Shown: one piece after another, positions 36,640-62,120 of the stretch | How the letters are laid out: each line of letters opens with the position of its first letter | Position numbering within the stretch: the stretch's first letter is position 1 | Source of the DNA: Lentinula raphanica | Taxonomy: Eukaryota; Basidiomycota; Agaricomycetes; Agaricales; Omphalotaceae | NCBI GenBank assembly: GCA_027919835.1 | Contig: JANVFP010000038.1 | Span: 1-64,000, forward strand | DNA: 64,000 nt | Direction of reading: 5' to 3' | Notes under the pieces: model-generated | The model's database searches: none | Seen by the model: the letters and a program-made list of their open reading frames with translations, nothing else | Told to the model about the DNA's origin: nothing | Made by a program: the position numbers and the translations under genes

Positions 36640-36889
36640 TCAGACTTGAACTGAATCATTCTGGGCCTCGAGTTCTGCAACCATAGCGTTGTACAGTGTT
36701 GGACGACTCAGGAGGAGAACCCCCAAGGTCGATGAAACAAAACCAGCAGGTCGAGGCCAACGTCTTGGATGAAGATATAGAACAGGAGGACTTGAATCTA
36801 GATTCTAGTACACTAAGGTCATCACAGTTGTCGTATATCTCAGCTATTATACACTCACTAAAGCCATCGTTGAGCTTTGTGGCGACCAT
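36640..36889 (-). CDS. Possible small protein divergent from the cyclin, copy 1 (62 aa)
   Basis: Two exons: 36859-36889 and 36640-36797, with a 61-bp GTGAG...TAG intron. The matching locus at 63489-63742 encodes a 61-residue protein with the same ends: start MVATKLNDGF here, MVVTELSDGF there, and similar C-termini (LLLSRPTLYNAM here, LLLSRPALYSAM there). The middle 16 residues are read in different frames in the two copies, yet both stay open to the same stop. No known domain. Real coding status is uncertain. Confidence 0.4.
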
Positions 36890-37197
36890 CTCAAGGGCAG
36901 AAGAAGTTGAGACGAAGTACAATTGTGAGCGCATTGGGCAACTTGTGTACAGTAACAGTGTGACGCGTCGGCGCGTATAATTAGCCCCTGTCTTGGTGAG
37001 TCTCACAGTCTCGTGCTCGAGACCACCTCCCCTGATTTTTTTCTACTCCTGCCTCACATCTATGCCTTCCCCTGATCTACAGTGTCGTATAAAGCCATGG
37101 ACTCGAAGCCTCCAACTCTTCAACCAAATCTACCATCAGCTTACCCAACTCTCTACACCAACTCGAACTTCATTAACGAACTTTACTCTTCATCGAC

Positions 37198-38606
37198 ATG
37201 GCTTGTCTTATGATGGATCCTTCTTATTACAATTCGCTACAAACCACCACTCGTACACAACGCTCGCGCGCCGACAAACCCACCCGAGTTGTTCACCCTG
37301 CGAGTCTTGTCGATCCTAATTCGCATTCATCAGCTCTTCTTCTGCTCATAAACGCAAGGGTGACTTCCCACGTTGCTCGTAAGTGGATGACTTCCCGTAA
37401 CGATTTTTAATAAAACGTCGTATTTTCTAAACATCTGTCACAAATTTGTAATAGCAAAAATACAGAATTAATACAGAGTGTTTTCCCGTAAGCTTCTGAG
37501 CAAGGCGCTGCATGAGGTAAAAATATTGATGGGATTTCTGATCCCTCCTCTTCAAACACGACGTGCGATCATTCTTGAGTGCATAGCCGACGTTAGCCGA
37601 CTCGCCTAGGGAAAAATACAGCGCATTCCAATCTACAAGAGGGTCGGGACCCTCTTGTAGATTTGAGCATTTAGAAAAGCCCCAAAATTTCAAATTTCTT
37701 GATGTGACACGATGCCGCTCTCCGGCAGACATCGCTTATAGTTCACGTAACGATTAATACGACGTTAATAAACGCAAAATGCTTACGGGAAGTCATCCAG
37801 TATCAATTACCATTCTATACTCAAACAATGTCCTGACTTCCGTGCTTCTGTCTTGTAGAATACGCTGCAGACAATGTTGCTGATTGCCTGGGTTTCTATC
37901 TGAACATACGCCCAAGATTGTCGGAGGAAGAAATATCATATCGTCAGGCTGTCCGCCTGCGCTTCAGATCGTTTGTCCAAAACCTCTTTGATCGCTCTGG
38001 AGTCACGATCCCTGTCATTATAACCTCAATTATCTATATCGAAAGGGCACAACTTTACCTTTCGTACTCCAAGATCGACGAACGAGAACTAGCAAGAATT
38101 TACCTTGCTTCTATCATCGTTGCGTCAAAGGTGTGTATCTACTGTTGCTCATACATTGCAATCGTCATTGACTGATGTGTCCTCTCTAGTACCTCAACGA
38201 TTGTATCATGAGCAACACCATGTGGGAAGAATTCAACGCCGTCTTCGGAGCGCAAGAAATTGCTGAATTCGAATTGTCATTCCTTGCATGTCTCCGTTGG
38301 AAAATGAAGGTCTCTGACCGCGATATCCTTCTTCATTACGACGAGACGTTCTTCGAAGACCCGGCCATCGTGAACAACCCTCATTATTTCTGCCGCTCCG
38401 ATCCCTCCCAACCTCGAACGCAGGTCTGCTTGAATCCTAGTGGATACGACCGCTGCCCCGGACTTGCTTCGCCAAGCTCGTTCTCGTCAGGAGACGCTTC
38501 CTTACCACATACACCTATCGATGTGAAGACATCCTCCCGCAAGTCTCCGTCCAAACATAAATCGGCTTTCCGGAAAATTCTGCACGCATTTCGCGTTCAT
38601 TCGTAA
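37198..38606 (+). CDS. PHO80/PCL-type cyclin, copy 1 (289 aa)
   Basis: Three exons: 37198-37378, 37859-38130, 38190-38606 (870 nt, closes). The cyclin box covers about residues 80-200: RSFVQNLFDRSGVTIPVI, SIIYIERAQLYL, ELARIYLASIIVASKYLND, FELSFLACLRWKM. This pattern is typical of PCL cyclins that activate the Pho85 kinase (cell cycle, polarity, phosphate or glycogen control). The C-terminal 80 residues are a Ser/Pro-rich, probably regulatory tail. Intron 1 is 480 bp because a MITE is inserted; in copy 2 it is 63 bp. The donor still reads GTAAGT because the first base of the MITE supplies the T, so splicing may be intact. Confidence 0.9.
37384..37799. mobile_element. MITE-like non-autonomous DNA transposon (about 416 bp)
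   Basis: Present in cyclin copy 1 and absent from the otherwise near-identical intron of copy 2. The ends are inverted repeats: TGGATGACTTCCCGTAA at the left and its exact reverse complement at the right (17 bp perfect). Similarity continues to about 45 bp, including ACGTCGTATT. The flanking duplication is only 1-2 bp (G or AG) by comparison with the empty site. No transposase: the one open frame inside (37427-37732, -) resembles nothing. The superfamily cannot be assigned from this single copy. Confidence 0.88.
37630..37663. repeat. Perfect 16-bp hairpin inside the MITE
   Basis: Arms AATCTACAAGAGGGTC and GACCCTCTTGTAGATT separated by GG. It lies slightly right of centre of the MITE and would form a strong stem in single-stranded DNA or in the unspliced cyclin RNA. 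Confidence 0.85.
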
Positions 38607-39067
38607 CGAAACCTGGCTCATGCTTTCACTTGCGGCTTGATTGACGCATATACCCTTTTGCTTGCTTGCATCATTGTTCGTTCTACCAACATATGTAGTT
38701 AGTGAACGAATTATACCTGCCTGTATTGCGATCAAATATCACACCATTTTTAAACCTTCTTCATCTGGTGTTTTGAGTTGCCTGATCTTAGTTTTGAGTC
38801 TCAAAAGTCGTATCATCTCTTTTCTCATCGAACACAAAATGCTTGTCCCATCTTCAACTTACTCAAAGAACGAGACGGCTCTGGATGCTATATCTAATCT
38901 AATCTGAATTCAGTCAACGGGACCAATTCACAACATGGTACGACTTTTTCAAAATTAGCGCCAGGGAAACTTTCCACCTTAAAATATCCAACATTTTTAC
39001 CACCTAACACTCATTCTCCGCACTCCTTTGCTTCTTGGTCTTCTTCCTTGAAGAAACCTGGTGAAAG
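38607..39067. other. Intergenic region upstream of CYP51
   Basis: First part (to about 38900) belongs to the inverted duplication. The remaining about 165 bp should contain the CYP51 promoter and leader; it is pyrimidine-rich just before the ATG, as is common for fungal promoters. No specific sterol-response site recognised. Confidence 0.5.
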
Positions 39068-45293: not shown

Positions 45294-48200
45294 ATGGATG
45301 CCACGCATTCCTACAATCCCAGCTCCACCCAGAAAGGTCAAAACATTGACCCTTCTGAAATTCATGACCTCCCATACCAGTCTGCAACCCAGACTAGGTT
45401 CCTCCCACCCATCGACGATCTGGACGATAATTCAGAAGACGATGATGATGACATGCCTCCTGGTATCATGGTAGATGATCTACCGATTCTTCCACCGCCA
45501 GTAATGTTCACCCATGACAATGCGGATGAGGGTGTCCCTCCTCCAGGCATCATGCTGAATGACAACGGGCTTGACTTCCATGATCGAAACCAAGGCGAAG
45601 CCAACGAAGAAGGGAGATTACCTCCTCACAGCGGCTCCTCCGCTTATACAGAAACCTCGGGCAATATCAACGAGCCAACTAGTGAATCCGGCACACCTGA
45701 TGCGCGCACTGGCCCTCTTACATTCAACTACACGTTTCTCCCGGATATGTCGTTGGCAACTGCTAGCGATGGCTCATCTGGTACTGGAATCACAGACGTC
45801 GCCAGCTCATTTGGTGAATACAATTCAGGAGGCGCCACGGATCATCCTATGGAGTCCATAACTAGAACCGACTACGATTCGGGATCCATACAAAGTGTTG
45901 CTTATCCTGCCTACCCGATAACATCCTACCCACCCACATCTTACCATCGTATCCCTCGCCCGCCCAACGCCTTCATTCTCTTCAGAAGTGCATTCATTCG
46001 AAGCCGTAAGATCTCCTCAGATATCGAGGGGAACCATAGCACTTTGAGCAAGATCATCGGAAGGTTATGGCGAAACCTACCTCCGGATGAACGTGCTGAA
46101 TGGGAAGCTCGCGCGAGACTCGCGCAAGAGGAACATCGGCAGAGGTACCCAGATTGGAGATTTAGTCCTGCTGGAGGCGGAGGTGTGTCCGGGAGAAGGC
46201 GAGGAAATCGAGGACGAGGGAGGGGAAGAGGGAGAGGGAGACTGAAAGCTGGACAGGGAGGAAGAACTTCAGGCTCAGGTGCAAGTGCAGGAGATGATTC
46301 CGCAGAGGCGGGGCCTCCGTTGAAACAGGACAAAGGCAAGGGCAAGGAGAGAGAAGTCGATTCAGATGCGGGCGTCGATGATATGTCTAGTATGGGTTCT
46401 GATCAGGCTGGGAGTGGACAAGATACAAGAGCGGTTGTACAGGTCGACTCCTCTGCCTGGCCTATAGTTCGTGGCGCTTCATCTAGTCATGCGGAGTCGT
46501 CCAAGAGGGTTCTTCATCGCTCTACGACCTCTGAAATCATCCAGGACTCATCCAGTGATTTCGATTCCCGTCTTCATTCGACGTCGAACTTGACAATGTA
46601 TCCCCGTTCCCTCTCACCTCAGGAACGCGACGATCCCGCTCCTCTGGGAGATACTCTTGCACTCGGTCCACAAGAATCAACATCAAGTAATCCTAGCGTT
46701 TCTTCTTCAACACTGTCACCGATAGACGAACAAAAGAAATATCACTCTTCTCTCGTCTCTGCCTCCCACGTTAATCCAGATAAGAGCCAGGAGCGGGAAG
46801 GGGAACCACAAGCACTCCAAGAACAAACCCACAACGCCGATTCTCATTCCAGTCTGTCCTTAAGAGAGGTCTCATCTGTCAAAAAGGAAGCGGACGCACG
46901 TGTGGACGCGATTGCTGACATGCTCATACGTGGTTACGAGGGTAAAGCGTTGGAAGCTGCAGTACAACAATGGGAAACAGCTGGTAGGAAAGAAAGTGAC
47001 AGGCGTATGTTGGATAGCAAAGGGAGGAAAGACAAGGACCAAAGAGACAATGGAAAGAAAGGGAAGACGAAAGAAGCAGAGACGAATCCGATAGAAGATA
47101 CGGCAGGCCAAGAACATGCTCTGGAGGAGGGGTTCCGCCCAAACATTGAGGTATCGGTATTACGGGAGCGTCAGATAGGTTCAGAAATCGCAGTCCGAGA
47201 GCAGGGTCAAAACGAGAACAGACCTGGGCATACTCATGATCTACAATCATCCGACCTCCACGTCGGAGAAGACGCTTTCCCTGAAGGTCATGACTGGTTC
47301 ACTGATTATAACTCCGGACCTACAGCCCTCTTGGATAGTGTCCAAAGTACGTATCTTCGCTGCCTGTTCTCTTCTGTGCTCGCTCATCAATTATTGTGTT
47401 CTACAGCTTCAAGGTCAAGTTCTAGCAACGAGACGGAAAGAGAACGCGGACGTGCTGGTGGTGAATGGGGTTTGTTTGACACAGTTGATGCTACAGCTGG
47501 TGCGATATAACATCTCGGTCATATTGGCTTGGAATCTGATTCAATTTGATTTCCCTTTAAATCGCCAGGTCCTGAACATTTCGCTTCTCCTAATGCATTA
47601 TTTCCTACCTCCATTCCCATCGCTCGTGTGTTTCTGAAACGGTCGCTCTCTGAACCAGCTGCTCCACGCCCGACTAGACCTAGATTACAGCTTCCCACGG
47701 AAGAGAACATTGAAACTGCAGAGAAAGATGGCCGCGACGAGGGAGGTGTTCGCACGGAGTATCATGAGGGATACCCTCAATTCGGTTTAGACCCTACGCT
47801 ATCGATGGCACATTCTATCCATCCGTTCCAATCACACGAAGAGCTCCCGACAGAAACCTCTCGGCCACCTGAAGATACAGTTTATCCCTCTCTATCCTTC
47901 CGGCATCTTTCCTCTTCCGACTTCTCTGGGGGAAGATATGCTCTGCGGCGCCATCACGCAAACAGTTATCCCGCAGTGACCCCAGGGTCGGCTCGAGGAC
48001 GGTCTGGGTATCCTATGTCTCCACATCCAAATCCAATACCTACATACACGACATCTTTGGCGCCACCTCAAGTACTTGTCCGTCGCTCCGAGGATACAGT
48101 AAGCAATATAAACAATGACTATTTGTGGTCCATATCTACCTTATCCGCAAGCCCGCCGTTGTCTTCTGTGTCTCGAACGACTTCATCTGATCCTGGGATG

Positions 48201-51779: not shown

Positions 51780-51784
51780 AGAAG
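51780..51784. repeat. 5-bp direct repeat AGAAG, left side of the insertion
   Basis: Identical to 62116-62120. The uninserted cyclin copy 1 has a single AAAAG at this place. This fits a target duplication or a recombination crossover site for the element at 51785-62115. Confidence 0.8.
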
Positions 51785-52010
51785 TGCAATTGAGACACGA
51801 AATGAAGACGATAGTAGTCACATCAGTCACGAATGGGTGACTGACGTGATGCGGACCGAGTGAACGGAGACCCGAATTCGAGCTCCACGACGGGAGCAAA
51901 CGAATCCGGCGTAGGACGGGGCAGTCGACGGCGATGGAAGCAAAAACGTCGCCGACGGAAACAAAAGAACGAAAGAACGCGGTCGCGGGTGCGCTGAGTG
52001 TATTGCAGTC

Positions 52011-52054
52011 TAGGAAAATGGTAGGAAAATGGTAGGAAAATGGTAGGAAAATGG
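52011..52054. repeat. Four tandem copies of an 11-bp unit
   Basis: Unit TAGGAAAATGG repeated exactly four times, near the left end of the 10.3-kb element. Confidence 0.95.
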
Positions 52055-52219
52055 TAGTGTAGGTGAACGGTGAAAAAAGGAGCAGCGGTACTTGAGGAAG
52101 GAGAGAAATTTGGAGATAGAGAGCGTTGGTAGGCAAGGAAGATGCGTGAATGTAGATAGGGAAGCATTAAAACTTGAAGGCACTCCAGACTAGAGAGACA
52201 CCCTTGAGGCATCTAAGTG

Positions 52220-52599
52220 ATTAGGTCCTTGTGAGCTGGCTGGAGCCCGAGCAATCTTGCGGTAGATGGAGACTGACAAGAGAGAAAACTGAAAAGGTGT
52301 GCGCGCGTACGCGCGCGGACGAAAAATGGAGAGATAATGACTTACGATCTTGAGGAATCCATATAGCAGGGAAGGGAGTTGGCAGGTAATACGGTGCTAT
52401 GTTGCAAGAACGAGGGAGTAGGAGTGTAGACTAATGCCGAAAGATCGATTCAAAGATGGAGTCAGTATCAATTGAGAATACAAATGTATAGGTACGTACG
52501 GGCATTATAACCGCCTTCCATACCACATCGTCTCCATGACCGAGCAACATCGTCTTCACATAGGTCCAAATCGTCGTTCCAGTGTTTCTTGCCAGCCAT
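52220..52599 (-). CDS. Possible small protein gene near the left end of the element
   Basis: From an ATG at 52599: exon 1 (52500-52599) begins MAGKKHWNDDLDLCEDDVAR, then exon 2 (52346-52396) adds a Pro/Tyr-rich stretch (PPYYLPTPFPAIWIPQD). The donors are good (GTACGT, GTAAGT) and phases agree. The last exon is unclear; an AAG acceptor near 52257 would add about ten residues before a stop near 52220. Total about 60 residues. No known family. It is divergent from the ubiquitin-derived gene. Confidence 0.4.
52301..52316. repeat. 16-bp perfect CG-rich palindrome
   Basis: GCGCGCGTACGCGCGC, an isolated alternating purine-pyrimidine palindrome in the left part of the element. It could adopt a cruciform or Z-DNA form; the role is unknown. 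Confidence 0.9.
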
Positions 52600-52902
52600 A
52601 AAAATCTCGAAGTTTTGTGATAGCAAAAAAAAGACGTTGTGAAAGAGGCGCCGGCCAGCTCAACAAGCGCGAACCCAATCTATTATCTAACCCAATGCAG
52701 CATGTGACCGTATTATTTAATTCATCTGCCAACGTTCTGAGTTTCGTTCTTCATCTTCTTCCACCACCACCACCATTGTCTATTTCAACGTTCTTCATAA
52801 TCTGCCACTGTCATTTGCCTCGATTCTCTCTGCATCACTCTGCATCACTCAACCGACTACATACTCTGTCGAGCGCTCTGGCTCTGACACGGCTATTACA
52901 AC

Positions 52903-53398
52903 ATGCTCTCACAAGAACATCGTTCACCACTAATACACGTTGTATTACTCAAAGGTTTCTCCACTCGACAGAAAGTAAGTTGCGCTTATATCCCGGCTGT
53001 TTTCTCTCTCATCTGTTCACCCAAGGTACAGCCCTTCGTCAAAACACCAATGGGTAGGACAATCACTGTTAAGATGGCGTCCTCGGACACCATTGACAAC
53101 GTTAAGATGGCGTCTTCGGACACCATTGACAACGTTAAGATGGCGTTCTTGGACACCATTGACAACGTTAAGATGGCGTCCTCGGACACCATCGACAACG
53201 TGAAGGCCAAGATTCAGGCCAAAGAAAGGTATGTAATTTGCTGTTCTGTTTTCATCGCTGCTGCCGCTCATCCCTTTCCATCATAGTGTTCCCATTTGCC
53301 AACAACGTCTGATCTTCGCTGGAAAGCAACTCGAAGATGGACGAACACTTTCAGACTACAACATTCAGAAGGAGGCGACCCTTCACTTGGCTGACTAG
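52903..53398 (+). CDS. Ubiquitin-derived protein with fourfold internal repeat and no diglycine tail
   Basis: Three exons: 52903-52974, 53026-53228, 53287-53398 (387 nt, closes; 128 aa). After a 24-residue leader it reads [15 protein letters not shown], the ubiquitin N-terminus with changes. It then has four tandem copies of [11 protein letters not shown] (the ubiquitin residue 16-26 region), then KAKIQAKE and the ubiquitin middle and C-terminal part ([29 protein letters not shown]). It stops at AD, lacking the LRLRGG tail, so it cannot be conjugated. The extra copies would disrupt the ubiquitin fold. Either a decaying captured ubiquitin gene or a new protein; the open frame and conserved splice sites keep the second option alive. 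Confidence 0.65.
53071..53202 (+). repeat. Four tandem 33-bp coding repeats
   Basis: Four in-frame 33-bp units (53071, 53104, 53137, 53170) differing at a few bases, lying inside the ubiquitin-derived gene. Normal ubiquitin has one such unit. Confidence 0.95.
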
Positions 53399-53846
53399 TA
53401 CGTATCATTCATTATTTACCCTTAGCCTTCAACTGATATATTGTTCAGAGTCGCCGTACCCTCTTCGATTGGAGAAGACACGTCGAAATACGCCCACCTA
53501 CCTCCTCCTGTACCTAGTTCGATGACCGGTTCCTTATCGTCCTGTATGCCGATGTATGTTATGCTATACAGATGCATGAGCAATTGAATTTCAATTTACT
53601 ATATCTTGTGTGCTCCGATCCTTCACAATCAGAGTATGGACTTTGAGAATTACTAGTAGTGTTTGCCAGGTGTTTGCGCCAGGTTCGCGCATTTCTTAGA
53701 TTTCATGTTGGAGAACTCGGAGAGAATTCTGTCAGTGTAACGGGAGTACATACTGACATACATACTCATACATATTACTGTGTACATATTACTGTGTACA
53801 TATCTATCAGTATCAAAAATTCTCTTCGTCGCTAATATCAATTATA

Positions 53847-55637
53847 TCATTGTAGTCCACCTGTGAATTTGAACTGGAGGCTAGGGTAGTTGAAGAGGTG
53901 GGAACACCGTGGAGGACTGGAACATACTCCGCATTCAGTTACAAGTACACCAAGCAAGGAAAAATTCTGACCGGGCAAATTGTTTTGATAAGAATTTTTC
54001 ATGGCATACGAAAGGAGAACAGCATGAACGTTCATTCGTCGAGTTGAGATTGAGTCAGCGGAGTTCGCCAGGCCAGCTAATCGCATGAGAACGGCGGTAC
54101 TGAAAGTGACCAGAATCCGTTTGGTCCACTTCTTGTTCTTGGTGTCGAGAGCTTTCTTATTGTTGATGATGATAGAGTAGGTTGGGATGAACGGCTTCCC
54201 AACGTTGTCAAGCAAAAAGTTTCCTTGAATAGGCTCAACTTGAGTTGCAAGAACTTCTGCGTTGCTGGGATTGTAGACGACAGATTGCTAGGGAATTCAA
54301 ATGTATCTGTCAATCAATCAGAGACAAGCATACCCATGCACTTACCGAACAGAGCATTTGAACAATAACGGCCGGCCATAGATTTGAATGGAATTTTTTC
54401 CGCATGAGGTCCGAACCCCAGCAGAAATGTTCCCTGCAGAATGAGGCGATTCCTCCTATGTCTGGAAGCCTTGGGGGACAGTGAGGGATAAGGGTCGAAG
54501 TGGGTGGTGTGAAGAACGCCTGGATTCCCTTCAAGTCACCAAGTGAAGGGAAATCCGACTCACGAATCTTCCGAGCACGGCTGGGACTGCGCTTGCCGAT
54601 CTTCCCGTGGCTGTCAAACTCAAGTTCGTTTGCCATGTCATGGTTGATACGTAGGAATGCTGATGCCAAAAGCTGTGGGGCCGCTGTTGAATATTGATGA
54701 TAAACCTCTAGGAGCCTATCCCCGAATCCACATTTTGCAAGGCTGAGAGCGGTCTTTGCTCCTATCCCATCTACACCTTCAGTGATATCGTTCGTTAAGA
54801 GTAGAGCGATAAGGATGAAGCCTCCTCGTGAAATGCCTATTTTTGTTTGAATATCAACAGTGTTGAAAACGTTCACCTCCAACTCATTACTCCGCTGAGG
54901 AGCACTTCAAGAAATGAGCTTCATATTCTCAGATAAAAATGTATCCACATACAAAGGAAGAGCCCGCAAAACGCAGACGGCACCAAACGGAAACACATCA
55001 CTATCCTTGGTGAGGACAGCATTAATGTGTCCGGTTCGATTCAGTTCTGCTAATTCAGCATCAGCATCACCCTTGGCCTGCGAAAGTTCTGAATGAGTCC
55101 AGAGCACCGGTGTCGGTAGCTATCCTGACATACAGTGAATGCGTAGTACCCGAATAATTCGATAAGATCCCGGGCATGCTTGTAGAAATCAGGCTCTCGG
55201 TTGATGACTTTCCGGCCTCTTTTCACCGCAGGGCGTTGGAGACCATCAAAATAGAAAACACAGTTAAGTCCGGCCTCTGCCAGCTGGCATAGAAACCGGT
55301 AGAATTGAGTTAAGGTGGAATCCGAGGTATGGAGGCTTGATCTGTACTTGTGCATACCCCTATCTGCAGCACGGAAGGTATCAAGCATGATACTATGGAA
55401 GAGCACTGTAATGAACAACTAAATTGTATTCAGCAAAGATCTTGGACTTACCTTGCATCTACGCCGACAACAGGCGCACCAACGTTGCCATAATTCTTCA
55501 CGAATCGATATTCAATATTGAAATCTTTGAGGCTTTGTTCAATACCGTTCTGTTGTACGAGCTGAATCGATCCATTAGAGCTCATAGCGGCTTACAGTGA
55601 GTACTATGCTTACACTCCAGAGGCCCTCGATTCCCAT
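53847..55637 (-). CDS. Rad2/XPG-family structure-specific nuclease (PIN-like domain, 503 aa)
   Basis: Six exons: 55614-55637, 55452-55561, 55134-55392, 54949-55077, 54346-54894, 53847-54287 (1512 nt, closes). The start MGIEGLW and the following GVDASIMLD form the N region of the Rad2 family. FDG (about 99) and the I region AKGDADAELAELN...VLTKDSDVFPFGA carry the acidic metal ligands; DITEGVDGIGAKTAL is the helix-hairpin-helix DNA clamp. It should cut branched or flapped DNA. The C-terminal half is lineage-specific. It starts 234 bp from the divergent dioxygenase gene inside the 10.3-kb element, suggesting a role in element replication, excision or repair (inference). Confidence 0.87.
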
Positions 55638-55871
55638 GCTTAAGGCCGTCGAGGAAAAGAGTAAGAGGTTTGATAGTTAGGAGCCAATTTGGCTCGAACG
55701 GCGCTTCAGGGCTTATTACAATTGGTTTCGGCATTCACGGCTTAACGCCTTTTCACGTGAATGATCTTGCTCCGCGGCTCAACCTTATATCATCAGGTTC
55801 AACTTAAGATTTCAACCCTCAACTCTCAACCTTTAACGCTCCCTGTTCCCCACGTTCAACGGCCATCTTCG
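55638..55871. promoter_or_regulatory. Divergent intergenic region between nuclease and dioxygenase genes
   Basis: 234 bp between the two start codons; must contain both promoters. It includes an imperfect repeat of CGGCTTAACGCC-like and GCGGCTCAACCTT-like phrases. No specific factor site is recognised. Confidence 0.5.
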
Positions 55872-57804
55872 ATGTATGCAAATGATGCGCGGTGAGCTCT
55901 CTTTTATACTTCTCCAGCCTATGCTCGAATCCGTAGACCAAGCCGCCGCCCAGCCCCTCATCTAGGCAAGGCTCGGCATGGTTCTATAACTCGAGCAGGG
56001 CTTTCGAAGCACACCCAGCCGTTCTTTCAGAGTGCTTGGTTTGAGTTTCTTTCTCTTCATTTCTTACCAGCCAAGCGTCTTCTAAACGAAAACTCATGCA
56101 GCTCCCCCGGAGCCAAACCTAAATTGCAGTCGCATCAAGACTCCTTTCTTTGACTTGCAAGCCGCGCTCGAACGCGACAACCGAGCTCGGATGGAGGCTG
56201 AGGACGCCGGAGAGAGTTTAGACGACGGGGAAAATGTTTTTGAGAGTAGTGATGAAGAGGAAAACGCGCTTGAAGACGGCGCTGAGGAAGAGAACCTCTC
56301 AGGTACGTGTTGGCGTTGAATCACTCCCTTAGACCGCGTCTCATGGGCTTGTTTAATTTCAGGTGCATATTCTGAAGGAGATCTGGCTTCTGTAACACCA
56401 TCTGAAGGCAATAACGCGACTGGACCCTCACGACGCGACAAGAAGCTTCAAAAACTCACAAAGCGCTCCCGTAGCAAACGCGTCGCAGATGCTGTAAAAC
56501 GCATCTCAGAGCACGGCCTCAAGCCGCATGCTGTCGAACTCGCACACGGCGCCAAACCCATTAGCTTAAAGGCCTTCGATATGCGTTCTCTTCCTGTGTC
56601 TGCAACCGGCTGGACTGCAAACAGTAGGAAGAAGCTATCCCCTGGCTTACAAAGGGTATGGAAGAACCTGGAGCTTCTCAGCTCAATCAACGGCTTCGAG
56701 CTCCTGGAATGGGATGGCGAGTGCGTGCCTGTTTGCTTGCAGAATTTGTGACCCTAATCTCCTGCCTCTAGGACACCTCTAGCGCTCGTAGATGTCCAGG
56801 ACCGAATCGTCACCGCCCTTGGGGGCATTCCAAGCGGGTCTGCGGGTGAAGACTGGCAAAGCGTCTGCGACGATGCCTCGACCGCGGTCGAGCGATGCTA
56901 CACAACCAGCAGCTTTTCGAAAGCCCAAACCCATGGCCGACGTGGGGATTTCGCCTCTCGTACGGTCGGCTTTGGTTATGGGAACGGTCGGCTGAAACCG
57001 CAAAACTTTCGCGTGGCGGGAAAAGCTAACCAAGCAGCCATGAACTCCCTTCTTGGTGAACACTCTATTCGCCGAATTTGCATTTACCAAGGCTGTAAAT
57101 AGTATCTCGTTATTGCTCCTTTTTACTGCTCGTTAACTGCAGAGTTTTCAGCCATCTTCAACGCCTTCAACCACAAATGCTACAAGGAATGTATGCAGTT
57201 GAAGTCGGAGCTTCTTCAGAAACAGCCGGAGCTTCGCACCCCCTTCTCGCGCTCCCCATTCGCTGCTCTCACTGTAAACCTTGGTCCACAGTCCTGGTCG
57301 CCACCTCACATGGACGCTGACAACTATGTTTCTTCATGGTGCGCAGATACACCCCTTGGCTCTTTCGACCCTGACAAAGGTGGCCAGCTAGTGCTTTGGG
57401 ACCTAGGGATCGTTATTCGTTTTCCTGCTGGCTCCACTATCCTCTTTCCATCTGCCCTCATCACTCACTCGACCCTTCCAATCCAAGCCAATGAAACGCG
57501 GTATGCAATCCTTCAATACAGCTCCGGAGGCCTCTTTCGTTGGCGTGAGAATGGTTTCCAGTCAGACAAGGCTGCACTGGCAAAGGCCTCTCCAGAACAG
57601 CTCAAAGAACGGGAGTCCAACCGGTTGAATCGCTGGAAACTCTCCTTATCGAAATTTTCCCACTGGGCAGATATATCCCGAGGCGACTGGAAGGGAGTCA
57701 TACGAACACAAGCCGGGCTTGACGATTTGAGTGACCTTTCGGACCTAGATGAAGTTGAAGATTCTTTACTGTTACCTCAGAGAAAACGCGTTCGAAAATT
57801 TTAA
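55872..57804 (+). CDS. TET/JBP-like 2-oxoglutarate/Fe(II) dioxygenase (about 510 aa)
   Basis: Proposed exons: 55872-55891, 56130-56302, 56363-56720, 56772-57091, 57143-57804 (1533 nt, closes). The first exon is tentative, and the fourth intron needs a GC-AG splice (the nearby GT donor would create a stop). Catalytic fold in the last exon: HMD (His346, Asp348) in WSPPHMDADN, then GGQLVLWDLG, distal His399 in ALITHST, Arg410 in NETRY for 2-oxoglutarate, and an FRW motif near the end. This matches the dioxygenase family expanded in agaricomycetes and assigned to TET/JBP, enzymes that oxidise 5-methylpyrimidines in DNA. The N-terminal half is acidic then basic (RRDKK, KRSRSKR), plausibly DNA-binding. 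Substrate is inferred. Confidence 0.75.
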
Positions 57805-58014
57805 TGTGTATGTATGTGTTTTTGTGCTGAATTTGAAGACTCGTGTTGCTTTCTACGTGCCTCTGAGCTATCAAGTTACCGTCGCTAAGCCTTTGCTCCC
57901 CGCTCCTCCATTCCTTGCTAAAGAAACACAGGCTGTAGCTGCCCCTCTGTCAGATAAAAGGGGCTCGTTTCTAAGCCATGAGACCTAGGACGATCCTTGA
58001 CCCCTTTCCTCACC

Positions 58015-59715
58015 ATGAGCGTCGAGTCCTCCGTCGAGTCCTCTGTTGATCTCTCAGAGGATGAAGCCTACAAAGGGCTTTTCAAAGCTATTACAGATAC
58101 AGAAGAGCAGCAAACAAATGTCGCAGAAATCCTCGATGACTTAGAAGGGACGCAAGACGGTGCAGACTCAGTCGACTTGAACCAGGAGGAGAATTCATTC
58201 GATTCTTCCACACTTCAAGGCCAAGTCCAAGAGGCTTCCAAGGGTGTTTCAGCCAAAACTTCTGTGGAATATGCTCAGTACGTTCAGGACATTTATCGTT
58301 TGAGCTGTGTTGATCGTCTGGAAGGCTCATGCGAAAATGCGAGAGGTTTCTCATTGAACAAGGTATTATAAGCAAGGAAGGCCAATTTTTCTGTAAAACG
58401 CCTCATCCCCAGTCTGCTGTATATATCGTGGCATGGATTATGGACTCGTACGTATGCTGGTCTCTTTCTCAAACTAGCCTCTGTTCATTCCCTCTACTAG
58501 CTGCGACCTCATCAAACTTGACGGCAGCCCAGTCGCCGCTAACAAAGAACGATCTACCTATACAACTGCTCAGAAAATGCGAGCAGCAGCAACGTTTGGC
58601 TTCGGACGAATGTGTGGGTTAGGCAATTTGGGCTGGCACCGAAGCGAGTTTTCTGGCAAGATGCTCGGCAACCCCTCTGTATCTGAAACTGTGTCCAGCT
58701 ACATGCTGAGTCTTCGCCGACGAAAAGTAGACCCTCTATCGTTCTTTGCCTATCTACCACTTACATACCTACTAGACACAAGCAGGAGAAACTTCGACTA
58801 GCGCTAGGGCAGTCACTGCAGTGAGTATCTCTTCAACGCTCATTTTTCTTACTCACATTGATCACAGGATTTATTGAAGAAACTCTTCTATTTCAATACT
58901 CAGCCCAAATACCGAAAGCCCCAGCCTCATCAGCCATCAACTCGCGGCACTCGTACTGGGGGAGAGTTAGGCTGTCGTGCACGAACCATGCTGACTCTTG
59001 CTTATAATATTGCGTTCTGTGGCCTACTCCGAGTCGACGAGCTTTTGAAGATCCAGTTTCATGACATCCGGATCACGAAAGATCCCAAGACTGGGCTAGC
59101 CAAGCTTACACTTACACTCCCTTTCCGGAAAACAAGTCAATTCGGAGGTGAGCCTTTATGAATAAGCTAGACATCATTGAGTTCTCATAGCATTTGACAA
59201 GACATCAAACCGTTCGTCTGGTATTCGATGCCATATAACCTCCAACATATCTGCGTCGTATCATCATTCGCGAGGTGGATTACAGTTTCAGGCCTATCAG
59301 AAGGATTCGTGTTTCGCAAGATCCGTTCAGGTGATTCTCTAGCTGAAGGAAATGAACCAATGGCAAGTAAACCCTCCTGCTATCTTCAATGATACTGACT
59401 TTGCATAAGACCTCAGAATATTTTCTTGAAATGTTCAGAAATAACCTTGTTGACATCGGGACCGACTTTGTTCCTTATGGCACTCACTCGTTTCGGCGCG
59501 GGGGATGCCAGTGGTTATCAGTAGAAAGGCGTTGGCCCTTGCGTCAAATATGTGAGTGGGGAGGATGGAGCCAAGAGTTTACCCATCTCACCATTGTCAA
59601 ATATCTCATTTCTTGGAACGATAATCCTCACATTGACCGTGATGATTTCTTTAATATGCATCGAAAGCCTACTACAGTTTGTCCTACATGTAACCGTTCA
59701 TGCCACTGTGCTTAG
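58015..59715 (+). CDS. Tyrosine recombinase of the 10.3-kb element (467 aa)
   Basis: Seven exons: 58015-58277, 58325-58447, 58501-58726, 58776-58820, 58868-59147, 59202-59362, 59410-59715 (1404 nt, closes). Intron 6 is GC-AG with a perfect GCAAGT donor. Catalytic set: Arg274 in FCGLLRVDELL, His392 and Arg395 in GTHSFRRGG, Trp419 in EWGGWS (the second His/Trp position) and Tyr431 in IVKYL. All are present, so it may be active. The N-terminal 200 residues contain an acidic leader then a helical core-binding-like domain. The C-terminus ends in a Cys cluster (CPTCNRSCHC). Unlike the recombinase at 8.2-11.3 kb it has no GCR1_C domain. The convergent SAP gene ends 100 bp away. Confidence 0.87.
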
Positions 59716-59814
59716 ATTTTTTTGGTGAATAAACTCGTCATTTGATATGAAGCTCTACATAAAATAAGGAAACTAAGCTATAGAGATTATCAAAAAAATT
59801 TAAACTAATTGAGT

Positions 59815-61698
59815 TCAAGTGGAACGGTGTGAAAGCTCAGCAAGGTAGTGTTTAGCAATGGCCGATGGTTTTCGAAGCACCTTGCCCTGGTTATTGACAA
59901 ACACCTCTGAAAACCGGTCACCGTATTCTTCGCGTGCTCTGTCTGCGAGCACCTTTTCTTCCTCAGTTCGAAGGTCGCGAAGTCGATCAGTGATCCGTTT
60001 CCAAGTGAAGGGTTTGACTTTGCCAGTGGACTCGTCCTTCTCAGAAAACTCCTTCCAGAAATCCTGAGGGCTGCCAGATTGGTAGCGTTCCACAACATAC
60101 TGTATATAAAGGTGAGTAATTGGAACGAAGCTGAAGAGAGAACAACACACCCTCCACTCATTCCAATGCTTCTTCAACCAAGGCCAGATTGAGCTGCGTT
60201 TGCCACAGAATACCTCCTGCCAGTAGCGTAAAGCAATAGGCACTCCATTGATCTTGAGGAGATTCTGACCACAATCTGTGGGATCCCAATTTGGCCGTTC
60301 GTCATCCCAGACACGGTCGAGCCGGTCAATGCTACCCGAGAAGGATATCATGTTGGGCTCACGGATGCTGCTGAGTCGGTATCTGATAACCTGTCCATGT
60401 CCGATGGTAAGCTCATAGACCCTCTCTGCATCAGCTGCGTTTGGCGTAGAGGCTCCATCGCCTGAGTCTACATGAGCTGTCGGTGTTTCGTTGGCCAAGG
60501 AGCTCAAGCCAGGTCTGTCGTTTGAGGTAGCTTCCGTGGAGGATAAGAGAGGTGCTGAAGAAGTTGCATTGGCGATAAATGAAGGGTGTGTGAAAGAGGC
60601 GGCAACGGCACCGGTATCCAAGGATTGAGGAGGTTGTTGAGGTGCTGCGTTTACAGGTGGATGATAGACGGAGGGGATAGGAAGACCAGAAGGCTCTTGA
60701 AGCAAAGGTAGACGGCTAGTGTTGAAGCCTTGAAATGCGCCGTTAAGAGATATCATCTCCCCTAGCATAGACTGCATCAAAGCCGCTAACACGTTCTGCC
60801 CACAAAACACTTGAGAGATGATAACAGAATGGGAAAGTATGCTACATACAGGGCTTGCAGCCTCGTCCTTTGCCCTTTGCTCCTCCTCTTCCTTTTCCCT
60901 GCGAGTGACCTCTTCTTCGCTGAGGTATGGATACTCTAAGCAGTGCTCGTGTGCCTACGATCAATGCAATGAAGGCAGTGTTGCCAAAAAGGGCTCGAAC
61001 AAAGACTTACCCAAGTTATCAGCGCGTTCTTTTCTTCAAGAGTACGCATATCCTTCGAACGCTCGGTGGCAAAGAGCTGTGTCCCAAGCGGAGCATCGAG
61101 AGGTAGACCCATGAGTTCGTTCCTTCGTAAAGTAGATGGCTTGAGCGCTTTAGCCTTGGGAGCAGAGGAATTCGATGATTTCTTGGCTGGTTGCTTGTTC
61201 TTGGTGATACCACCGCTGCGGACACCGCGGTGAGCACGTTGAGCTTGAGGAAGGAGACTAAAAGAAGATATTGAGCATGAGAAAGCTAAAGTTGAAGATG
61301 ACAACGCACCTTTGCCAACGCATTCTGTTCTCACTAAATGCGATCAATTTCTGCCTCAGCAGATCCTTATTTCCAACCGATCCCAGGGAGTAAGATTTGC
61401 AGAGCTCAAGGAGCTCCGGACGTTTCAAGGAATTGCTATGTATTTGAGAGTCAGTGAGGGAAAGAAAACGAGAACGACTCTGAAGTTCTACTCACATGTT
61501 GGTATACGTAGTCTGGAAAACCCCGTCGTCTACTTTTCTTGGCAGTAATATTGTATTCTCAGGCTGAGATTCAACAGGTAGGGCGACTTGAAGTTGGTAT
61601 CCGTCGACTTCAATGTCCTCGATACGGGCCGAGGGTAGAACTTGAGGCTGAGATCCAGCGTCGGGCTCGTCGACCTCCATAGCGTTAGATTCGAGCAT
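59815..61698 (-). CDS. SAP-domain DNA-binding protein of the element (542 aa)
   Basis: Six exons: 61496-61698, 61310-61435, 61011-61257, 60846-60954, 60151-60809, 59815-60099 (1629 nt, closes). Exon 2 encodes a SAP motif at about residues 70-105 (LKRPELLELCKSYSL, NKDLLRQKLIAF), a helix-loop-helix that binds AT-rich DNA. It is followed by a Lys-rich segment (KKSSNSSAPKAKALKPS), a Glu-rich coiled stretch, a disordered Ser/Pro region and a C-terminal domain with conserved tryptophans (RYWQEVF, WPWLKKHWNEW) and a charged end. It converges on the recombinase gene, as the partner gene does in the Crypton locus. Likely an accessory DNA-binding protein for recombination; start could be any of the first two methionines. 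Confidence 0.8.
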
Positions 61699-62115
61699 AG
61701 TGTATGTACAGTGTGAAATGAGCGACAAAGCAGATGCTTGTATCTGCAGAAATCTGGTCAAGAAAGTGAGAGAGTCCGAGTCGAGCTCGCTGATGGTAGA
61801 GACGAGGGAGGAGAAAGGAAAGGTTCCGGTGACGGTGCCTGCGCCATTGGTGATCTCGATCGACCTGGAGGGGTATTCAGTGAGCCGAGCGTCAAAACAT
61901 GTAGCAATGTAGAGGAGGACGGGGCGAATAACGAATGGTAAGGGAGAGAAACCGGCCAGACGACGGCGAACGCGATCGTGGTACAGGTATGTATAGTGTA
62001 ACGTGATGAAAATGATGGAGACGATATGTGATTCGGCAGGAATCACATCGTCGTCAGCCGAACTACGGGCCCGGGACCGGTTACCCGAGCGTGACTATAG
62101 TGTCTTTTTACAGAT

Positions 62116-62120
62116 AGAAG
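62116..62120. repeat. 5-bp direct repeat AGAAG, right side of the insertion
   Basis: Pairs with 51780-51784; see that entry. The sequence to its right (GGTATATGCGTCAATC) matches cyclin copy 1 without a gap. Confidence 0.8.

Follow-up and report, generated by a model that had tools for sequence, protein, structure and literature searches.

We analysed a 64,000-bp stretch of the Lentinula raphanica genome (the window; positions 1 to 64,000 of contig JANVFP010000038.1, here C38, which is 468,520 bp long in a genome of 49.06 Mb and 75 contigs), in which a mobile element of about 10 kb separates the two halves of a cyclin gene. The element carries genes for a Rad2/XPG-family nuclease, a TET-fold dioxygenase, a Cre-like tyrosine recombinase and a SAP-domain protein, and in the window also a ubiquitin-like gene (Table 1).

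The two cyclin loci of the window lie in inverted orientation and one of them is split by the unit, as a sequence-only reading of this stretch had described. When the flanks of the element were joined with one AGAAG, they aligned without a gap at the join to the cyclin paralogue (38861-37799, minus strand, 92% over 1087 columns), and the nearest gap spans 15 bases and lies about 45 bp away on the right; the paralogue has AAAAG at the site where the joined flank has AGAAG. The Cyclin_N match of the cyclin gene is weak (19 bits, under the 23-bit cut-off). AGAAG does stand on both sides of the unit (51780-51784 and 62116-62120), as had been claimed, but it is not the repeat of the whole family: the base preceding the right GAAG is A in all seven complete copies found in this genome, whereas the base preceding the left GAAG is A in only five of them, so that the repeat common to both ends is GAAG, which makes the unit one base longer than the 10,331 bp first stated. 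GAAG precedes all ten left ends detected by similarity, against a frequency in the window of 1 in 136 per strand position. Terminal inverted repeats (TIRs) were absent: when the two 150-bp ends were compared, the longest exact match in inverted orientation was 7 bp and away from the tips in the window unit, and 6-9 bp and never at the tips in the seven copies.

A search of the genome with the first kilobase of the element gave 10 places, each starting at the first base of the unit, and we rejected an assembly artefact at the junctions because the same left end recurs at ten loci. A further left end, on C19, was left out of the GAAG count because its search pattern included GAAG. The seven complete copies (9.96-10.57 kb) were assembled from fetched pieces and all have GAAG at both ends, which bears out the earlier proposal of precise ends beside a short shared repeat. 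Their common left end consists of TGYAATTG and a conserved hairpin; a 38-bp pattern of this hairpin, which lies 32 bp inward from the left end, had 10 matches in the genome (at most 3 mismatches), all at element left ends, and the reversed pattern, used as a control, had 0. The gene order nuclease (-), dioxygenase (+), recombinase (+) and SAP protein (-) was the same in all seven copies, so the four genes do co-occur as the sequence-only reading had supposed, and the tests made brought up none of the findings named in advance as incompatible with one unit. The element is a single multi-copy unit with fixed ends, GAAG repeats and no TIRs, whose four genes stay together. Two of the full copies, C39:234466 (-) and C39:234734 (+), stand head-to-head with 267 bp between their left ends.

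Table 1. Features of the window and complete copies of the element in the Lentinula raphanica genome
Feature	Position	Strand	Length (bp)	Basis or remark
Complete mobile element (complete copy, window)	C38, 51785..62116	+	10,332	Paralogous empty site and seven full copies with like ends
Left GAAG repeat	51781..51784			GAAG precedes 10/10 left ends detected by similarity
Conserved subterminal hairpin GTCACATCAGTCAC-GAATGG-GTGACTGACGTGAT(GCGG)	51817..51854			Presumed binding site of recombinase or partner
Ubiquitin-like gene	52903..53399	+		Pfam ubiquitin 33.3 bits, cut-off 25.4
Nuclease of the Rad2/XPG family, with GEN1-type proteins as best PDB sequence matches	53847..55637	-		Exons by eye; XPG_I 56.2 bits, cut-off 24.9
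TET/JBP-fold 2-oxoglutarate-Fe(II) dioxygenase	56101..57804	+		Start uncertain
Cre-like tyrosine recombinase, Cys-rich C-terminus	58015..59715	+		Exons by eye, junction near 58.31 kb provisional; Cre matches, R-K-H-R-W-Y in 7/7
SAP-domain protein	59815..61698	-		Deposited protein P0122, 99% identical in best local alignment
Conserved right-end block (ACCCGRGCGTGAC + 21 bp)	62074..62116			Alignment of copies
Right GAAG repeat	62117..62120			Follows the conserved GCGTGAC block by 21 bp in six copies and by 22 bp in one (7/7 right ends located)
Cyclin paralogue with the insertion site empty	36667..38861	-		Alignment to joined element flanks
Complete copy	C4		10,330	
Complete copy	C38:401966		10,568	
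Complete copy	C24		10,443	
Complete copy	C39:234734	+	10,169	
Complete copy	C17:1083633		9,958	
Complete copy	C39:234466	-	10,548	

The recombinase, the third or fourth gene of the element copies, is related to Cre: a profile of 40 recombinase sequences matched Cre (E 1.2e-5), and a Foldseek search with the model of P0001, which is 93% identical over 70% of the query (mean predicted local distance difference test score, pLDDT, 74.8), placed Cre first (1.2e-6), followed by XerH, Flp and Ndc10, although the TM-scores were low (Cre about 0.4). Six catalytic residues (Arg, Lys, His-x-x-Arg, Trp and Tyr) were retained in all seven copies. None of the 40 recombinases matched the Pfam models of Cryptons (DUF3504, GCR1_C) or Starships (DUF3435) at E 0.01, and therefore we use the word Crypton for anatomy only. 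Among the 120 listed of 272 relatives of the recombinase, Mycena, Agaricus, Suillus, Lactarius and Auricularia were represented and many proteins were named 'DNA breaking-rejoining enzyme'; in Collybiopsis, the tags of the recombinase and dioxygenase matches listed were not neighbouring. Three distant recombinase loci of this genome (C3, C14 and C19), whose identity nowhere exceeds 62%, each had a match to the SAP protein no farther than about 1.1 kb away, a weak one in C14 (E 1.1e-5) and C19 (7.4e-5), and no dioxygenase and no Rad2 gene within 40 kb among the matches listed, which suggests that recombinase and SAP protein may be the older core of the element.

A DDE transposase acting in trans with a fixed 4-bp target, like the users of TTAA or TA, would make the recombinase cargo or a resolver of intermediates. 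Fixed target duplications are also known from some DDE transposons and KDZ transposases are abundant in this genome, but the element has no TIRs, no transposase family was found in its gene models or in the ten further open reading frames (ORFs) scanned, none of the KDZ or Plavaka places listed lies within 51785-62116 (a difference from KDZ transposons), and the recombinase residues are kept in 7/7 copies, so that we regard movement by such an enzyme as improbable. The gene models, their exon ORFs and the ten further ORFs held no reverse transcriptase family either, a difference from DIRS and Ngaro elements, and the unit held no tRNA or known RNA family.

Among PDB sequences, 5cnq and 6grb ('nuclease-like protein', E about 1e-22), which we take to be Chaetomium GEN1, matched the nuclease best, followed by human GEN1 (3e-14), Rad2 (1e-13) and FEN1 (1e-10). 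Seven acidic positions were readable in six of the seven copies, where Asp replaces Glu at E158, E160 or both (FEN1 numbering), and in C17:1083633 four acidic positions were not readable. The SAP domain scored 12.8 bits in the window model, under the cut-off of 23.9, and its family member P0145 exceeded it with 26.5. In the ubiquitin-like gene an N-terminal segment is repeated in tandem and the C-terminus has no LRGG; the gene was present in the window, C4 and broken C17:407931 copies, with no match in the other five complete copies, and is a putatively captured gene, a feature of a sub-lineage. Outside the element, the window also contains an HMG-box protein gene (45294-47510, Pfam HMG_box 2.1e-12).

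The predicted fold of the dioxygenase resembles CcTET, with a double-stranded beta-helix of the TET type and HxD...H...R. Its ligands were retained in all seven copies, each with HxD and none with the PE-type TET signature HxE, and 4 of 29 members of the family matched Pfam Tet_JBP at E 0.01 (best 1.2e-6). Three matches to DNA_methylase in the host genome exceed the cut-off, and between the window and C4 copies the C-to-T difference was highest at CpG, a mild excess (0.137 vs 0.084-0.103). Instead of removing 5-methylcytosine, the enzyme may act on another substrate (N6-methyladenine, RNA or protein) and serve the element otherwise: neither phmmer nor a profile search matched the CcTET chains in the PDB at E 1, which means no close sequence relation, FTO and PHD2 are among the lower-ranking fold matches, and CcTET oxidises N6-methyladenine too, according to the parts of PMC12730594 consulted. 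We hold such a different substrate to be possible but doubtful. About 45 bp upstream of the dioxygenase gene (55937-55982) recur at seven places outside the element copies, possibly as a shared promoter piece, and one of the seven is about 2 kb from a KDZ transposase.

Relatives of the dioxygenase are found at 73 places (91 rows, from 84 of 142 candidates scored, merged by hand; KDZ rows were merged to at least 113), of which at least 17 lie within 6 kb of a KDZ transposase and 48 near neither a listed KDZ transposase nor a recombinase. This proximity, and the entry of a Kyakuja-type element into the C17:407931 copy, would fit a nested composite in which a TET-bearing KDZ element had inserted into a small recombinase element. 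We rejected such an origin, however, and consider it extremely improbable, because seven diverged copies share the gene order and both ends and because the recombinase-linked dioxygenases group together in the tree with one truncated locus inside, while five KDZ-linked ones, those of the 17 KDZ-near copies which the tree took in, fall outside. The Kyakuja-type element itself (C17:381638-405750, 24 kb) has CA..TG ends, is flanked by a 7-bp duplication, TTTGATA, and matches a KDZ transposase at C17:390114-390888.

Selection on the four genes was examined by the ratio of nonsynonymous to synonymous distances (dN/dS, Nei-Gojobori, exon blocks) in 28 comparisons. In 16 of these (four genes in four pairs: window-C4 and the three among C38:401966, C24 and C39:234466), dN/dS was 0.07-0.31 at dS of 0.20 to 2.41, that is, 0.10-0.20 for Rad2, 0.12-0.22 for the dioxygenase, 0.07-0.23 for the recombinase and 0.11-0.31 for the SAP protein. 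The four element genes are under purifying selection where dS is measurable. Further, between C38:401966 and C24 dS was 1.34 for Rad2, 1.00 for the dioxygenase, 0.23 for the recombinase and 0.42 for the SAP protein, and because synonymous distances vary so strongly along one pair of copies, this points to a probable exchange of segments between element copies.

In Lentinula as a whole (25 recombinase, 42 SAP and 40 dioxygenase contigs, with Rad2 outside the count), 16 contigs carry two or three of these families, one of them C4 of this genome: seven in L. raphanica, three each in L. edodes and L. lateritia, and one each in L. aff. lateritia, L. guzmanii and L. novae-zelandiae. Records were assumed to share a contig where their contigs were equal in bp, and no equal values occurred across different species; 10 of the 16 are shorter than 50 kb, and on the long ones sharing means the same contig, not adjacency. 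An L. raphanica contig of 10,264 bp, near the size of one element, carries P0010, P0147 and P0178, and with them all three families, and is perhaps an extrachromosomal circle or a collapsed repeat.

We presume with good confidence that the element is a tyrosine-recombinase DNA transposon of Crypton-like anatomy with a TET-fold cargo, and we infer circle-based movement, demethylation of its own DNA and a role of the nuclease in recombination. The sequence-only reading had likewise proposed that the element could mark or demethylate its own DNA while recombinase and nuclease mediate transfer. Excision by the recombinase would yield a circle with a single GAAG, which the recombinase would then join to a GAAG on a chromosome; the left hairpin and right block would guide this recombination, and the SAP protein would probably be the DNA-binding partner of the recombinase. 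The TET-fold enzyme would oxidise methylated bases on the element, keeping its genes expressed, and the Rad2/GEN1-type nuclease may trim or resolve branched recombination intermediates. In a stricter division of labour, the first strand exchange at GAAG would be the only step made by the recombinase, resolution of the Holliday junction would fall to the GEN1-type nuclease that the element encodes, and the TET-fold enzyme would keep element and junction demethylated. We think this unlikely; if true, the element would be a transposition system complete in itself, with recombinase, resolvase and eraser, and would found a new superfamily of transposons in Agaricomycetes.

Several observations weigh against the reading as a Crypton-like transposon with a TET-fold cargo, or limit it. 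Neither a circle nor an excision nor a polymorphism was among them. Only three right ends (window, C4 and C39:244880) were located by long similarity, and the other four rest on the short block and its spacing, the copy assembly having taken the next GAAG after the block. A full copy was obtained from 7 of 11 left ends: at C15 neither a dioxygenase match nor a right end was found, C13:1094978 consisted of about 77 bp of the left end with no gene match in the 5.1 kb fetched, the C19 copy is interrupted, and the C17:407931 copy is split by the 24-kb insertion, with its right half not seen in 1.5 kb beyond the last match. As to the intactness of the genes in each copy, stops occur inside the matched stretches and may be introns or damage, and among the 12 deeper dN/dS comparisons all but one were saturated, the exception having a ratio of 0.10 with dS 2.77. 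Four recombinases and four SAP proteins had no Crypton or Starship Pfam match even at E 5. The earlier label TET/JBP-like holds for the fold but not for the Pfam score, which was 13.2 and 11.9 bits for the window dioxygenase against a Tet_JBP cut-off of 34.9. Residues Gly331 and Asp337 of CcTET, as given in the consulted parts of PMC12730594, are Asn and Cys here at the same ungapped HxD offsets (by eye). The recombinase-linked dioxygenase group (17 rows) has modest support (82/89) and includes the truncated locus C53, and the approximately unbiased (AU) test rejected the 16 recombinase-linked rows without C53 as a clade (p 0.0036). No methylation footprint is seen either, because the CpG observed/expected ratio of the copies (0.85-0.91) resembles that of the rest of the window (0.87).

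Starships have a DUF3435 captain as their first gene. The element here is about 10 kb long, its recombinase is not the first gene and it has no DUF3435 match, and its likeness to Starships is that of a fungal tyrosine-recombinase element with cargo, as far as the portion of PMC12134995 considered here describes them. The nuclease has its best PDB sequence matches in the GEN1/Yen1 Holliday-junction resolvases (5cnq, 6grb, 5t9j) and differs from them in being encoded by a mobile element. Cryptons have a tyrosine recombinase, no TIRs and 4-6 bp terminal direct repeats, and a circle model has been proposed for them (PMC3212892, in excerpt); the element here shares the recombinase, the absence of TIRs and the short direct repeats (GAAG, 7/7), and differs in its four or five genes, its TET and Rad2/GEN1-type cargo, its separate SAP protein and a recombinase closest to Cre among solved structures and without a Crypton-type Pfam match. 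A 2025 survey described 11 TET-carrying fungal transposon lineages, all with a DDE transposase or Helitron, and its main text, as available here, uses none of the words Crypton, tyrosine and recombinase (PMC12730594). The element resembles those transposons in having a TET/JBP-fold dioxygenase inside a basidiomycete mobile element and differs in its tyrosine recombinase. No such element was described in the titles or abstract openings listed from the open-licence literature, with subscription papers outside the scope; the combination of recombinase, TET-like enzyme, junction-type nuclease and DNA-binding protein was thus not met there, and priority is not proven.

In the consulted text of the survey, TET capture by fungal transposons was reported only for DDE and Helitron elements (PMC12730594), and the pairing of a TET-fold enzyme with a tyrosine recombinase in one element suggests that a methylation eraser is useful to mobile DNA whatever the transposition chemistry. 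Since the unit is small, has precise ends and has an empty site in the same genome, excision, integration and demethylation can each be assayed, and the Rad2/GEN1-type nuclease offers a test case for a tyrosine-recombinase element that may bring its own junction resolvase.

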